The notes beneath the pieces are model-generated. The model made no database searches and was not told the DNA's origin. It saw only the letters and a list, made by a program, of their open reading frames with translations. Source: a virus. Taken from it: a DNA stretch of 30,673 bases. Shown here piece after piece: positions 3,535-30,673 of this stretch. The DNA lies in IMG/VR virus record IMGVR_UViG_3300033148_003039, positions 1 through 30,673 of that record. The stretch is one strand, 5' to 3'. The first letter of the stretch is position 1. Each line of letters begins with the position of its first letter. The position numbers and the translations under genes were made by a program.

Positions 3535-3563
3535 TTGACAAAAAAACAAAACTAGGTTATAAT
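3535..3563 (+). promoter_or_regulatory. Consensus sigma70-type promoter for the endonuclease gene
   Basis: TTGACA (3535-3540), 17-base spacer, TATAAT (3558-3563): a perfect match to both consensus boxes at ideal spacing. It lies 74 bp before the chosen endonuclease start. The transcript leader contains a GAGGG/CCCTC hairpin (3577-3595). Confidence 0.85.
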
Positions 3564-4612: not shown

Positions 4613-6099
4613 TGAAATTAAATATGTTGGATAAAATAAAAAGCTATATAAGTCCAGCTGCTGCATTTGAAATTGCAAAGTTTAGAAGTGCATCCGCATT
4701 ATATGGTGGTGGATTATATGATGGCGCGAAACAATCACCTCATTACAATATACAAAATTTTGATACAACAGAAGATGAAGATATTGCAGATTTACAAACA
4801 TTAAGAGCTACTTCAAGAGATAAATATAAAAATAATGGATTCTATAAAGGTGTTATTCAAGCAGCAACAGACCATACTATAGGAAGTGGATTAAGAGCTA
4901 AGAGTACAATTAAACATAAACAAATATCAGATTTAACAGAAGAAAGAGCTAAACAAATCGAAGCTGAATTTGATGCTTATTTTAATTCGTGGGCTGAATC
5001 TACAATATGTGATATCACCGGTAAAGATAATTTTCAATCAATTCAAAGACTAGCATATAAAATTTATAAAAAAGATGGTGATAGTTTTGCTTCACTTCCA
5101 TTATCAAAAATTGGAAAAGATAGAAAAACAATTCAAATTAATTTAATAGGTGCTGAAAATATACAATCGAATAAGATTGATTTTATCGAGGGTATAAAAG
5201 TATCAGCAAATAAACTACCATTACAATATTCAATTTTACAAAGCGACAATACATTTAAAACTATAAGCGCATTTAGTAAAGGTAAAAGAAATGTTTTACA
5301 TGTATTTGAGCGTGAACGTGCAAAACAAGTAAGAGGTATTCCATTCTTAGCACCAGTTATGCGCGATATCGATGCGATAGACCAATATATGAAATATGAA
5401 TTAACAGCAGCTAAATTAGCAGCTATATTTTTTGGCTCAATTACTACAAAATCAAAAGAAGATTTATTTAATCAAGATGGATCAATAGATTTAACGACTG
5501 GCGAACAAACTCAAACTACTAAAAATACAGTTAAAGAAAATAGTATAACTCAACTAAGTCCAGATGATGAATTAAAGATACATCAGCAAGGTAGAGATAA
5601 TCCAAATTTTGATAAATACATAAAAACAAACTTACAAAAAGTATCAACTGACACAAGAATACCAATAGAAATAATAATGGCTATTTTCACGAGTTCTTAT
5701 AGTGCATCGAGAGCATCAATGCTACTTATGATGAAATTCGTTAATCCAGAGAGAATGTTATTTATAAATTCTTTTTGTAAACCAACTAGAGATCAGGTTT
5801 TAACATGGGGAATATTACAAGGTGATATCCCATTAACAAATGCAGAAATACAAAGTTTTTTCGATAATAAAAGTGCTTATTTAAAAGCTATGTGGATAGG
5901 TGATCCAATGGGTTCAGTTGATCCAGTTAAAGATATAAAAGCTCATATACTAGCAATAGATAATTTCTTAGGGAATAGAGAAAAAGCTACAAGCGATTTA
6001 GGCAATGGCGATTTTGAAACAAATGTAGATATACAAAAAAAAGAATTAGAGCTTATAGAGCCTTTAATTCCAAAAGAGGAGAATAATACAAATGGATAA
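4612..6099 (+). CDS. Portal protein, lambda gpB family
   Basis: Forms the dodecameric ring at one capsid vertex through which DNA enters and leaves and to which terminase and tail attach. At 495 aa it fits the gpB family (533 aa in lambda). Recognisable parts are the N-terminal RATSRDKYKNNGFYKGVIQAA with GSGLRAKS, the central RERAKQVRGIPFLAPVM, and the later IFTSSYSASRASMLLM segment, all typical of gpB portals. Its start overlaps the connector stop by 1 base and its end overlaps the protease gene by 8 bases. As in lambda, N-terminal trimming is possible but cannot be seen. Confidence 0.93.
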   Translation: MKLNMLDKIKSYISPAAAFEIAKFRSASALYGGGLYDGAKQSPHYNIQNFDTTEDEDIADLQTLRATSRDKYKNNGFYKGVIQAATDHTIGSGLRAKSTIKHKQISDLTEERAKQIEAEFDAYFNSWAESTICDITGKDNFQSIQRLAYKIYKKDGDSFASLPLSKIGKDRKTIQINLIGAENIQSNKIDFIEGIKVSANKLPLQYSILQSDNTFKTISAFSKGKRNVLHVFERERAKQVRGIPFLAPVMRDIDAIDQYMKYELTAAKLAAIFFGSITTKSKEDLFNQDGSIDLTTGEQTQTTKNTVKENSITQLSPDDELKIHQQGRDNPNFDKYIKTNLQKVSTDTRIPIEIIMAIFTSSYSASRASMLLMMKFVNPERMLFINSFCKPTRDQVLTWGILQGDIPLTNAEIQSFFDNKSAYLKAMWIGDPMGSVDPVKDIKAHILAIDNFLGNREKATSDLGNGDFETNVDIQKKELELIEPLIPKEENNTNG

Positions 6100-22710: not shown

Positions 22711-24150
22711 ATGGCAATAGAAAAAATAACATCATCATCTGATACAAAAGAATGGATTTTAGCATGTAGTGAAAATGAATCATGTGAAATAGAAGTATTA
22801 AAAAATGACATATCATTTACAGAATCAAATATTATTCCAACAGACCAAAAAGAAACAGTAAGTATGCATTTTTTAGAAAAAATACCAAGAATATTTACTG
22901 GAGATGGATTTAATAAATTATGGATATTTATAGATAAAAAAGATATCGTAAAAAAAAGACCATTATCAATACCAAGAGTTATTCCAGGATTAGGTGATTT
23001 ATTTATTGGAGCATTAGGCGGTGCAAAAACAATTCAAGATGTATCATTATTCAGTTCATCTTTTATAGTAAACATATCTCGCAAAAAATGGGTGCCTTTT
23101 GAAGATGATATAGAAATATTTAAAGATGTAGATTTAACAAGAATTTCACATACTAATGGTAGTGCTATAATCACATCCGGAGCAACAATCGGAAACAACT
23201 CTTATTTAATGAGTAAACGACATCCTAGACATCAATCACAAAGAGGACATAATGCAAGTTCTTTAGTTATTTTACCTAATAAAGATGCGATAGGTATTCG
23301 AGAGTTTGGACTTAGGTCAAATTTTTATGGAGCTTTTTTTAGATTAAGAGATGGAAATCTTTATGCAGTAGTAAGAAATTCAATCGGTGGAGTATTGCAG
23401 CCAGATGTAGAACAATTAATAGAGGATATTCCGTTTCCTTATAATATGGAACTCGGAGCAGCATATAATATTCAATTACAATGTCCGACTGCTGGAAATG
23501 TGAGATTTATGATTCGCAATCCAGAAACAGAAGTAAGCGAAATTGTTCATAAAATGGCTTTTCCAGGCGGTATTCCATTTTTTATAAATAACTCATCAAT
23601 GCCATTTGGATATTATGCAGAAAACACAGACGGAACAAATGTCGAAATTCAAGCTAGATGTGCAGATGTTTCTTCGGAGGGAGGAAGCAAAGGAAATAGA
23701 GCTTTTGCATCTGTGTCGAGTGGAGCAGTAACTACTTCAACCGCAGAATTACCAATGATAGCATTTAGAATACCAAATATGGTAGGTGGCGAAATGAACA
23801 CACGAGATGTAATGATGAGTAAACTATACGCAACTACTGATTCATCGCCAATTGCTGCACTAAGAATTTATGCTTTTCGTGACCCATCCGCAATAACAGC
23901 TACATCATGGACACCAACAAGCGAGGGATTGCAAGAGATAGCCATCAATGGAACAATAACAGCATTTGACACTACAAAAATGGCGAAAATTTTCGATGTA
24001 GATATTGCCGCAAACTTTTTAAATTCTATAAAAAACACAGAAGAAGAAGTTGATTTAATTTTAACACATGGTGATTATTTACTGGTAACACTACAAGCAA
24101 AAAATAACTCAACTAGTAAGACTACAATAACTTATTCAGAAGAGATATAA
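22711..24150 (+). CDS. Large probable structural protein of unknown family
   Basis: 479 aa, beta-rich, last gene of the late arm. Visible parts: an N-terminal domain (about 1-75); a Pro/Gly-rich segment IPRVIPGLGDLFIGALGG (about 89-106); a middle jelly-roll-like part with SGATIGNNSYLMSKRHPRHQSQRGHN and GLRSNFYGAFFRLRDGNLYAVV (about 150-225); and a C-terminal Thr/Ala-rich part. No catalytic motif is evident. Co-orientation with the gpZ-like gene (4 bases apart) suggests a virion protein such as a minor tail, capsid-fibre or adhesin component. Its stop is directly against the minus-strand gene's stop. Confidence 0.5.
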   Translation: MAIEKITSSSDTKEWILACSENESCEIEVLKNDISFTESNIIPTDQKETVSMHFLEKIPRIFTGDGFNKLWIFIDKKDIVKKRPLSIPRVIPGLGDLFIGALGGAKTIQDVSLFSSSFIVNISRKKWVPFEDDIEIFKDVDLTRISHTNGSAIITSGATIGNNSYLMSKRHPRHQSQRGHNASSLVILPNKDAIGIREFGLRSNFYGAFFRLRDGNLYAVVRNSIGGVLQPDVEQLIEDIPFPYNMELGAAYNIQLQCPTAGNVRFMIRNPETEVSEIVHKMAFPGGIPFFINNSSMPFGYYAENTDGTNVEIQARCADVSSEGGSKGNRAFASVSSGAVTTSTAELPMIAFRIPNMVGGEMNTRDVMMSKLYATTDSSPIAALRIYAFRDPSAITATSWTPTSEGLQEIAINGTITAFDTTKMAKIFDVDIAANFLNSIKNTEEEVDLILTHGDYLLVTLQAKNNSTSKTTITYSEEI

Positions 24151-24966
24151 TTAATTGAGATTCCACAATTTACCATAGACCCACCATTCAAATAAGATAG
24201 AGTATTGAAATTCTTTATACCAACATTCAAAACATTCAATGCTTTTACTCTTGTTACTCTTTGACATAAAAATTGCATAAATTACATATAAGAACTCAAT
24301 AACTCTACTATTAACATTTCCATCAACATTAATAATACAATTATCCAGCATCAAATCAACCACATCTTTCTTTAAATCAAACTTACTATATAAGCTCTTA
24401 TATATAGCCTTTGTATACTTACCCTTACTATGACTCGAAAATCTTATCTTTTTCTCTAGTACCCCTCTAAAAATACGTTTGGCATCATCTAATTTCAATA
24501 ACTTTTCATCGGTCATGCTTTTATTATAATCTTTAATCACATATTCAAAAATCTTAGTATCGTTTTTTTGTTCAATCAATTTACAATATTCAGCAAATAA
24601 TCCAAACCTCGAGATAACTTTATCGTAAATTTTATCTATCTGATTTTGGTTATCATGCCATATTTGTAGGTGAACGTGGGGATTATCTTTATTTTTACCA
24701 AGCTCTATATTACTAAAGAATTTTATATTATCGTTTTTAGTATTTTTAACTAGCTTCACAAAATAATTACGAATATCATTTATCATATCAAGCTTTGAGA
24801 ATTTGTCACAATCCATATATGTAAATGTAATGAGGTTTTTTTGTAAGTGTTTATACTTATTTGACAGATGATAATATTCAAATCTAAGTGCATTGTTACG
24901 CTTTTTAATGCTTTTTAGTCTATCAAATGGCTCTGATTTGCATAAATATTGGTTATACGGTATAAT
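24151..24966 (-). CDS. HUH replication-initiator-like protein (ORF2/G2P Rep type)
   Basis: Read from 24966 the product is 271 aa. Motif I LITFTY (about 45-50), motif II NPHVHLQIW (HUH His97/His99) preceded by a conserved IELG, and motif III EYVIKDY (Tyr142/Tyr147) match Rep proteins of rolling-circle type, which nick one strand and attach to it through Tyr. The first ATG is at 24816 and would lose motif I. The frame stays open to a TAA at 24978-24976, and the best start is ATT at 24966 with AAGGA (24977-24973) 6 bases away. Either the gene uses this rare start or it is decayed. The C-terminal half is unlike known families. A role in phage replication or as a captured plasmid/IS remnant cannot be separated. 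Confidence 0.7.
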   Translation of the reverse strand: MIPYNQYLCKSEPFDRLKSIKKRNNALRFEYYHLSNKYKHLQKNLITFTYMDCDKFSKLDMINDIRNYFVKLVKNTKNDNIKFFSNIELGKNKDNPHVHLQIWHDNQNQIDKIYDKVISRFGLFAEYCKLIEQKNDTKIFEYVIKDYNKSMTDEKLLKLDDAKRIFRGVLEKKIRFSSHSKGKYTKAIYKSLYSKFDLKKDVVDLMLDNCIINVDGNVNSRVIEFLYVIYAIFMSKSNKSKSIECFECWYKEFQYSILFEWWVYGKLWNLN

Positions 24967-24973
24967 GTCACTT

Positions 24974-25007
24974 CCTTACTATGAGTTCCTGGCGGTGCGA
25001 ACTAAGG
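24974..25007 (-). promoter_or_regulatory. GC-rich hairpin covering the Rep ribosome site
   Basis: On the minus strand CCTTAGTTC (25007-24999) can pair with GAACT (24988-24984) and, past a 5-base bulge, TAAGG (24978-24974). The loop is GCACCGCCAG, strikingly GC-rich for this genome. TAAGG is the Shine-Dalgarno of the Rep-like gene, so the structure would hide it. It could be translational control or a nicking origin recognised by Rep; the sequence cannot tell which. Confidence 0.5.
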
Positions 25008-25030
25008 TTTTATTAACTACGATTTATTCA

Positions 25031-25056
25031 AGCAAGTTGATTTATTTTGACTTGCT
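25031..25056. promoter_or_regulatory. Inverted repeat AGCAAGT/ACTTGCT, possible terminator or origin element
   Basis: AGCAAGT (25031-25037) and ACTTGCT (25050-25056) are perfect 7-bp arms, extendable to about 10 pairs with two G-U pairs around a 6-base loop. On the plus strand CTCCC and six T follow (to 25067), resembling an intrinsic terminator for transcripts coming from the late arm. On the minus strand no T-tract follows. Lying just upstream of the Rep-like gene, it could also be part of a replication origin. Confidence 0.4.
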
Positions 25057-25065
25057 CTCCCTTTT

Positions 25066-25149
25066 TTAATTTAATTTTTCAAAGTATCCATAAACACAAG
25101 CTTTTCCATTTTTTGAACAATCATATGAATCAACGATACTTCCAAACAT
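25066..25149 (-). CDS. Possible 27-residue Cys-containing peptide
   Basis: In another frame over the end of the PAPS-reductase-family region, ATG 25149 opens a 27-aa frame (MFGSIVDSYDCSKNGKACVYGYFEKLN) ending at TAA 25066. It has two Cys and reads like coding sequence, but no strong ribosome site is seen. It could be a small gene or a frameshifted tail of the broken upstream gene. Confidence 0.25.
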   Translation of the reverse strand: MFGSIVDSYDCSKNGKACVYGYFEKLN

Positions 25150-25717
25150 TATAAAAATCATTAACACCTTGTTTAGGACAAAAATAACAACCAGTACGAT
25201 TAAAATGTTTATATAATGGATTATCGATTGAACGTTCTTTTAAAAACTCTCTAACATCATCCTCTGTCATATGATAATCAATCAATGGATAGACTTGATT
25301 GTCTGCTAGAACTTTTGCTCTTTGTAATTCAGTGAATGTATACCCAATATATAAAATATGCTCAACAATTCCTTTAGATTTTAACCATTTTTCAAAAGGA
25401 TATACTTTAGATTCTCTTTTCCAATAGCAAGGAACAGTAGTTTATGGCAATCCTCTTATTTCCCCATCCCTATCACCACTTGATACATCCGTAAAAGCCC
25501 AATCTTCAAAAGTTGAATTTGGTTTAACTATTGTTATTGTTTTATTAAATCTTCTTTTTATATATGCTTCAAATTTTTGTATATAGTCATACATTTCTTC
25601 AAATTCTGCAAGAGTATCACAAAAAACTATATAATCAAGTGGTAGTTTTTTCTCTAAGATCAAAACAACCATGCAAGAGCTATCATAACCACCACTCCAT
25701 TTTGCTATATATTTCAT
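25130..25717 (-). pseudogene. PAPS-reductase-family PP-loop protein interrupted by one TAA
   Basis: The first part (25717-25442, 91 aa) begins MKYIAKWSGGYDSSCMV, the SGGxDS PP-loop that binds the ATP phosphates, and ends at GEIRGLP-TAA (25444-25442). The same frame then stays open for 103 residues: CYWKRESKVYPFEKWL, GYTFTELQRAKVL and GCYFCPKQG (a C-x-x-C pair), to TGA 25130. Together they make one complete phage-type PAPS-reductase/PP-loop protein of about 195 residues, as this family is usually sized. No ribosome site or ATG serves the second part. A single-base nonsense mutation, sequencing error or readthrough are all possible. In phages such proteins occur beside DNA-modifying genes; the actual substrate is unknown. 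Confidence 0.75.
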
Positions 25718-26388: not shown

Positions 26389-27400
26389 CGAATAAACTTT
26401 TTTGTTCAGCTTTTTTTTCAAATCTTTCATCGGTTTTTGTAAGATTGATAGTTGCTTGTTTGAAATAACTATCTTTTAATTCTATTCCTATCGCTTTTCT
26501 ACCCATTGAAACAGGACTAAAAACCTCACTACCAACACCCATAAAAGGAGTTAAAACAACTTCATCAGGATTGCTATATAACTCTACGATTCTATCGATA
26601 ACATCTAATTGTAATGGATGAACATGTTTTTCATCGTCCTCACATTTACTATCTCTAAACGGTAAAACATTATCTATTCTAATATCATCCCATACACTAG
26701 AAGCGTATCTTTGCCATATATAATGATTAAGTTTAGTTATCTTATCATCCTCATTTATATATTGTAAATGATCCCATAATTGAGCTTCATTAAAATCTGT
26801 ATTATTCGCATTGTTCCAAGCTCTTAAAATGTTTGGAAGTATTGGAATTTCACCAGCATAATGATTAATTCCAAATTCATGAGTTACAGGAACTTCATTA
26901 TCACCTTTTTTTGTAAAAATTAAAACATAATCAGGCATAGCTGTAAAACATTTAGTGCTATCTTCTACTATGAATTTGTGCATTAAAGATTGTACCATTG
27001 TACGCATACGAACTTTTAAAGGCTCTTTCCATATTGTGATACGATTGCGATATTCAAATCCATATTTAGTATGTATTCTGATTATCTCATTTGGAAAATC
27101 CCATAATCTACAAGTATTATCAAATACATCAGTACAATGAACAGCATTGATTCGACCTCTTTTTGTAACTCTAGCCATTTCTTTAACCATAAATTCATAT
27201 TGTTCTAAAAACTGCTCTTTACTATCACAATTTGACATATCTTTAGGATCTGAACTATAATTGTATAAACCTGCAAATGGTGGACTATATACCGCCAAAT
27301 CAATACTTTCATCATCTAAAGTTGGTAATACTTTCATATTATCATCATTATAAATTGCATATCTATCTGTTACTACTTGGTTTTTTACTTCTGTTTTCAT
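26381..27400 (-). CDS. DNA methyltransferase, beta class (N6-adenine or N4-cytosine)
   Basis: 339 aa. Motif IV SPPF (about 39-42) comes first and the AdoMet-binding motif I FMGVGSE (about 286-292) near the C-terminus, the order of beta-class amino-methyltransferases; SPPF leaves adenine N6 or cytosine N4 both open. The middle part (WKEPLKVRMRTMVQSLMHKF...) probably reads the target. No partner nuclease is seen, so it is an orphan enzyme, likely protecting phage DNA from host restriction or marking it for replication control. AAGGAAA is a strong ribosome site. It follows the helicase gene by 10 bases, an arrangement frequent in phages. Confidence 0.9.
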   Translation of the reverse strand: MKTEVKNQVVTDRYAIYNDDNMKVLPTLDDESIDLAVYSPPFAGLYNYSSDPKDMSNCDSKEQFLEQYEFMVKEMARVTKRGRINAVHCTDVFDNTCRLWDFPNEIIRIHTKYGFEYRNRITIWKEPLKVRMRTMVQSLMHKFIVEDSTKCFTAMPDYVLIFTKKGDNEVPVTHEFGINHYAGEIPILPNILRAWNNANNTDFNEAQLWDHLQYINEDDKITKLNHYIWQRYASSVWDDIRIDNVLPFRDSKCEDDEKHVHPLQLDVIDRIVELYSNPDEVVLTPFMGVGSEVFSPVSMGRKAIGIELKDSYFKQATINLTKTDERFEKKAEQKSLFDE

Positions 27401-30108: not shown

Positions 30109-30673
30109 CTATTTTAAATAATCGCTAAAAAGCTCTTTAATTTTACCACCACCATAATGCCCATCAGTCATTTCAATAACTTCTGAAAGTGGAAACTCTG
30201 AACCCTTCAACCCTTTATCTTTCATAAACTGACTCACACCAAAAGAACAAGCACCAGTAATAAGTCTATACTCTTCAATATTTACAGTTTGCTTTTTTCT
30301 TATATCGTTTATAATATCCTCAACATCTGCACTTTCTTGTAAAAACTTAAAATTACAATCAGATATAGATTGTTCTAAAGTTTCGCCATGTGCAAAATAT
30401 CCATCTCTTTCAGCAATAAAACAAGATGGTAAATCATCTAAATTCCCACCTTTGAAATATTTAGCTTTGTGTATTGTAAAATCATCTTTTGATTTGTTAC
30501 TTGTTATAATCATTGTAGTGTCATCAATATGATTAATCAATAAATCTTTATCTTGATACTTGATAGTCTTGCCATGTAAACTTCTCAAATCAACATAACC
30601 TTGATTCTCAAACTTAACACCCTCTGGTAAAGTCGTTAAACTTCTCAAATAAACATTACCTTGATTCTCAAAC
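30109..30673 (-). CDS. Repeat protein of the early arm, 5' end cut by the window
   Basis: At least 187 aa. A TTG at 30648 could be read as a start, but the frame is open to the last base of the window and the upstream codons continue the repeat, so the true start lies outside. Two copies of a 20-residue unit FENQGxVxLRSLxxLPEGVK are visible (the second partial), followed by a beta-rich domain (KYQDKDLLINHIDDTTMIITSN) and a helical C-terminus with LITGACSFGVSQFMKDKGLKGSEFPLSEVIEM. The repeats resemble leucine-rich, LPxG-type repeats that build solenoids for binding; the partner is unknown. The last domain occurs in unnamed phage proteins. Confidence 0.7.
   Translation of the reverse strand, partial: FENQGNVYLRSLTTLPEGVKFENQGYVDLRSLHGKTIKYQDKDLLINHIDDTTMIITSNKSKDDFTIHKAKYFKGGNLDDLPSCFIAERDGYFAHGETLEQSISDCNFKFLQESADVEDIINDIRKKQTVNIEEYRLITGACSFGVSQFMKDKGLKGSEFPLSEVIEMTDGHYGGGKIKELFSDYLK
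30581..30673 (-). repeat. Imperfect 33-bp direct repeat with 60-bp period (coding)
   Basis: CTTCTCAAATCAACATAACC (from 30581) and CTTCTCAAATAAACATTACC (from 30641) are each followed by TTGATTCTCAAAC. The 60-bp period equals 20 codons and the two copies are the two protein repeats of the gene above, so the repeat comes from the protein, not from a mobile element. More copies probably lie beyond the window. Confidence 0.85.

Follow-up and report, generated by a model that had tools for sequence, protein, structure and literature searches.

An HUH Rep gene of tailed phages with a predicted ATT start, probably limited by an antisense RNA whose promoter overlaps that start

Results

The window (the whole stretch of DNA analysed here, a virus contig of 30,673 bases) encodes a tailed phage, with plus-strand late genes extending to 24150 and minus-strand early genes, among them a helicase, a DNA methylase and a sliding clamp, extending from the right end to 24151. 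The rep gene is the last or nearly last of this early region. Sequence comparison places the clamp nearest a single group of clamp structures (181 bits, against 102 bits for the next best), which we take to be clamps of Helicobacter pylori; because of this closeness a Campylobacterota host is likely for the window phage, and the phage family as a whole probably infects Campylobacterota.

Three further genes of the window deserve mention. The late structural gene at 22711-24150 (+) shares about 85% DNA identity with genes of two other phages, L006 and L007, from about codon 85 to its stop; the homology ends exactly at 24150, where those phages continue with a different gene, in what looks like a mosaic exchange. 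An early protein at 30109-30672 (-) carries a short repeated motif (KFENQGNVDLRSLT-like) that it has in common with the L012 phage (L039 7661-8278 (-)). Directly upstream of rep, a PAPS-reductase-like gene at 25130-25717 (-) is broken by a TAA in frame (25444-25442), and the frame closes a little past the cysteine-rich part, so that it is probably either a pseudogene or a variant within the assembled population. The features of the rep locus itself are as follows.

24151-24966, minus strand: HUH Rep gene, 271 codons, predicted start ATT 24966-24964 (Pfam, seven relatives, dN/dS, AlphaFold2)
24817-24966, minus strand: the 50 codons upstream of the first ATG, with an N-terminal helix (DRLKSIKKRN) and motif I/beta-1
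24817-24834, minus strand: motif I/beta-1, LITFTY, upstream of ATG 24816
24664-24684, minus strand: motif II, NPHVHLQ, with two metal-binding His; H97, H99 and Q101 invariant in 8/8 genes
24526-24543, minus strand: motif III, YVIKDY, with putative catalytic Tyr and Lys; Y142, K145, D146 and Y147 invariant in 8/8 genes
24973-24977, minus strand: Shine-Dalgarno AAGGA, 6 nt before ATT
24961-24966, plus strand: predicted antisense -10 box TATAAT, overlapping rep codons 1-2 (ATT ATA), in 8/8 genes
24937-24942, plus strand: -35-like TTTGCA, 18 nt spacer, with a perfect TTGACA at the homologous place in L012, L016 and L017
24973-25067, plus strand: antisense RNA of about 95 nt, predicted from promoter and terminator, its 5' end complementary to the rep Shine-Dalgarno
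25031-25056, plus strand: predicted terminator hairpin, tail CTCCCTTTTTT, -11.1 kcal/mol

An earlier note on this DNA had described an HUH Rep-like frame whose motif I lies upstream of ATG 24816, and its coordinates, reading frame and motif are all correct. Its assignment to the ORF2/G2P type also held in a profile search: the extended protein matches Pfam REP_ORF2-G2P (PF23343) at 34.2 bits (E 3.1e-8), over the curated cut-off of 27.8 bits that five of the seven relatives also pass, whereas the protein begun at ATG 24816 falls under it at 26.7 bits. With H97xH99 of motif II and Y142xxKDY of motif III, the latter's Tyr and Lys being presumably catalytic as in the HUH family, unchanged across all eight Rep genes, the window gene is by its sequence an intact HUH Rep of the ORF2/G2P type, with putative nicking activity. 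Up to E 10, Rep has no Pfam match to Phage_GPA (PF05840, the P2 gpA replication proteins). The protein fell into no PHROG or NCBIfam family, and comparing the Rep profile with PDB sequences yielded nothing credible. Its weak tblastn matches are all microvirus replication initiators (VP4), which have the same Pfam domain; the similarity to them, at about 25-32% identity, spans between a third and half of its length, and the gene described here belongs to a tailed dsDNA phage.

The AlphaFold2 model of Rep (mean pLDDT 72.7) has the HUH topology, in the order beta-alpha-beta-beta-alpha-beta. A helix (residues 13-37) and a strand (42-49) precede the ATG codon (residue 51), and past it come a helix, two strands with the HxH, and a helix with the tyrosines; in this model, the catalytic sheet of a Rep started at ATG 24816 would be missing its first strand. 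Foldseek ranks the origin-binding domains of AAV Rep as top matches, and the best match by VIA-align is SIRV1 ORF119 Rep (Z 9.4 over model residues 29-154; 110 residues aligned, whole chain), itself the HUH Rep of a dsDNA virus (PDB 2X3G; PMC4187194). The SIRV1 protein differs in its 14% identity, in coming from an archaeal rudivirus with linear genome ends, and in being without the C-terminal extension.

Our comparison set comprises eight Rep genes of one family, all metagenomic: that of the window and seven relatives on IMG/VR phage contigs (L009, L010, L011, L012, L016, L017 and L019). Full-length searches of viral and genome contig collections with the window's Rep returned nothing; only a short query restricted to the HUH domain yielded relatives (L009 to L012), and alignment-based scanning added L016, L017 and L019. 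Subsequent scans, both alignment-based and L012-based, added no Rep relatives to these, and a plasmid collection contained no match; neither did the terminase relatives (L002-L008) or the late-gene relatives (L006, L007), the viral ones of which are fragments. All seven relatives have the window's layout, and in L009, L010, L011, L012 and L017 rep lies at or near the early/late junction, adjoined by differing virion and lysis modules. The early genes examined in the 44-kb L011 relative encode exonuclease VIII, an SSB, NinG, a methyltransferase, an anti-repressor and a probable recombinase, the last called from sequence, since the PHROG that it matched has no function. Because neither helicase nor primase was seen in this incomplete survey of early genes, the HUH protein is a reasonable candidate for the replication initiator.

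Where translation of rep begins can be narrowed by comparison. At its 5' end an in-frame TAA (24978-24976) is followed by GGA AGT GAC ATT(24966) ATA, and from that stop no in-frame ATG, GTG or TTG occurs until ATG 24816, 50 codons past ATT, just as the earlier note had said; AAGGA at 24977-24973 likewise stands 6 bases before the ATT, as it had reported. An in-frame stop lies one to four codons upstream of ATT in the window, L009, L011 and L016 (four in the window, L009 and L016, two in L011), and between stop and conserved coding sequence no ATG, GTG or TTG is possible. The AGGA motif precedes the start by 6, 6, 4, 6, 6, 6, 7 and 7 nt across the eight genes, so that seven have ATT after 4-7 nt and L012 has GTG after 6; the modal AGGA-to-ATG gap of ordinary genes in these phages is 6. 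When ORFs are ranked by how far inside their first canonical start falls, the HUH genes head the list. Among the three closest genes, the 49 codons of the ATT-to-ATG stretch show dN of 0.15-0.20 and dS of 0.93-1.58 (dN/dS about 0.13-0.21), a sequence signature of purifying selection on the codons upstream of ATG; because dN is low relative to dS, this stretch is very likely translated.

The proposal that the N-terminus extends upstream of the first ATG is thus borne out by the layout of the relatives and by selection, and ATT, kept in seven genes and replaced by GTG in the eighth, is on comparative grounds the well-supported and only sensible start in those seven. The second codon, ATA, is a less likely start, with a gap of 7-10 nt from AGGA. 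We also considered a frameshift or an upstream start in another frame, and rejected both: frames with canonical starts span the ATT in some genes, but none is common to all and L009 has none. A literature search found no precedent for AUU/ATT starts in phages, which is weak evidence of absence. In Escherichia coli, AUU starts such as that of infC are poor and repressed by IF3 (PMC5472188); the predicted rep start resembles infC in its codon, whereas infC feeds back on IF3, and control by IF3 is in this comparison a feature of infC alone.

A promoter scan revealed a second reading of the same bases. ATTATA at the rep start is the complement of a TATAAT -10 box, exact in all eight genes, and a perfect -35 box stands at the appropriate distance in three of them (TTGACA-17-TATAAT in L016 and L017, TTGACA-18-TATAAT in L012). 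The other five match 3-4 of the six -35 bases, and two of these with weaker boxes, L009 and L011, have TG one base ahead of the -10. Among other Shine-Dalgarno-linked gene starts in these phages TATAAT occurs at 0 of 116; under a single rule blind to ATT starts, which gives 117 such starts, it occurs only at the L012 Rep. Perfect promoters (TTGACA-N16-18-TATAAT) number only eight in 217 kb, three of them at a rep start; the rest lie at 3535 (+) and 27232 (+) of the window, at 814 (+) and 464 (-) of L045, and at 5472 (-) of L012, that at 27232 being antisense within the methylase gene. L012 has a GTG start and carries ATTATA 5 nt further on, out of frame, which argues that TATAAT is conserved as DNA. 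Residues 1-12, whose codons bear the promoter, form the least conserved part of the protein and are disordered in the AlphaFold2 model (pLDDT < 50). ATA is codon 2 in 7/7 genes, a constancy that codon usage by itself would seldom produce (p about 0.0015).

Downstream of the promoter, each of the seven genes whose upstream sequence is long enough has an antisense-strand hairpin with a T-rich tail (-11.0 to -17.5 kcal/mol), whereas a sense-strand terminator occurs in only two of the seven. The window's hairpin is the only terminator-like site within 23900-25300 and the weakest of the seven, its stem lying 5 nt from the T-run and 2/30 shuffles being as good; for each of the six relatives' equivalents the count is 0/30. 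If transcription is taken to start 7 nt past the -10 box, the predicted RNAs measure about 58-95 nt, and their first bases fall within or beside the complement of the Shine-Dalgarno. In the window, L016 and L019 there is room for the RNA between rep and the gene upstream of it, and in L017 it extends as far as the upstream stop codon; an Rfam search of 24800-25200 gave no family match. The sequences thus contain a conserved antisense promoter and intrinsic terminator at the rep leader, giving a predicted short RNA. The earlier note had missed this pair at ATT-ATA, which offers a concrete mechanism for the tight control of Rep that it had suggested, a likely theme that our comparison supports.

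Discussion

Taken together, these features suggest, with a probability of roughly two in three, that an HUH Rep started at ATT is limited by an antisense RNA whose promoter -10 box overlaps that start. Translation of this rolling-circle-type, replication-initiator-like HUH endonuclease would begin at ATT 24966; ATTATA, read on the other strand, would serve as the -10 box of a promoter yielding a 58-95 nt RNA that would end at the intrinsic terminator in the rep leader. If made, the RNA would be fully complementary to the leader, with its 5' end covering the rep ribosome site, and by pairing there would block ribosome access; it should therefore restrain Rep synthesis in the manner of pMV158 RNAII, and a low Rep dose would presumably matter. 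A weak ATT start would keep the nicking enzyme scarcer still.

The same arrangement may account for the choice of codon. With ATG in this place the -10 box would read TATCAT, and both demands therefore favour ATT. That one hexamer serves two strands, as the AUU AUA codons of an HUH Rep and as the -10 box of a silencing antisense RNA, is a reading towards which we lean slightly; the strength of the Rep start and that of the antisense promoter could then not be changed independently. If it is correct, a second code, read from the opposite strand, would account for a conserved non-AUG start, and a plasmid-style antisense copy control of HUH Rep would have been brought into tailed dsDNA phages.

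The nearest known counterpart is the repB/RNAII pair of pMV158, also an HUH Rep with a short antisense RNA against its leader. RNAII has 48 nt, with a single-stranded 5' tail and one terminator hairpin, and hinders ribosome access through complementarity to the leader just upstream of repB's atypical start signals (PMC4485353). The differences are that pMV158 is a plasmid with a CopG repressor, and that RNAII excludes the start signals, whereas in these tailed phages the predicted -10 box falls on the start codon of rep and the 5' end of the predicted RNA would lie over the Shine-Dalgarno. The OOP RNA of phage lambda, another short antisense RNA beside a phage replication initiator gene, targets the upstream gene cII; the RNA predicted here instead spans the rep leader and stops short of the upstream gene or just reaches it.

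Other accounts of the locus explain part of the evidence. The hairpins might terminate a convergent late operon that reads antisense through rep, with ATTATA kept only as codons 1-2. The late-gene stop (24150) abuts that of rep (24151) and the two overlap in L009 (853-856), and since no room for a terminator remains between convergent stops, late transcripts probably do read antisense into rep, towards terminators that point in the right direction. The out-of-frame ATTATA of L012, 5 nt past its GTG and with a perfect -35, and the improbable constancy of ATA as codon 2 make this unlikely as the whole explanation; a terminating role can coexist with the antisense RNA, and both may be true.

We give still less credence to low expression arising from the ATT start and a hairpin that sequesters the Shine-Dalgarno, with no antisense RNA. 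Such masking had been part of the earlier note's proposal, and the hairpin is indeed present in the minimum-free-energy fold of the window, where the Shine-Dalgarno pairs with CCTT; this fold is no better than that of shuffled sequences (z = +0.58; 145/200 at least as stable), the relatives have no common structure at the Shine-Dalgarno, and the out-of-frame TATAAT in L012 and the TTGACA boxes would be left unexplained.

The origins of HUH enzymes are often found within or close to rep and involve hairpins, and ATTATA with the nearby hairpin could be the nick site and binding hairpin of Rep's own origin instead of a promoter. We consider this about as improbable as the sequestering hairpin: the hairpins vary in sequence, length and distance, and the element combines an exact -10 hexamer, -35 matches spaced 17-18 nt from it and, on one strand, a hairpin with a T tail. 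That rep is a decayed element that has lost its former start codon, as the note had allowed and as the broken PAPS-reductase-like frame beside it might hint, is scarcely credible and already contradicted by conservation: seven diverged relatives have the same layout, the motifs and catalytic residues are intact, and both parts of rep are under purifying selection.

Gene callers restricted to ATG, GTG and TTG lose motif I in the window, L009 and L010, and similar Reps have therefore probably been missed or mis-annotated elsewhere. As a separate observation, the terminase large-subunit gene of another phage (L007:1269-2717 (+)) opens with 55 codons that contain no ATG, GTG or TTG; an ATC at 1284, 7 nt past AGGAG, overlaps the end of the preceding gene.
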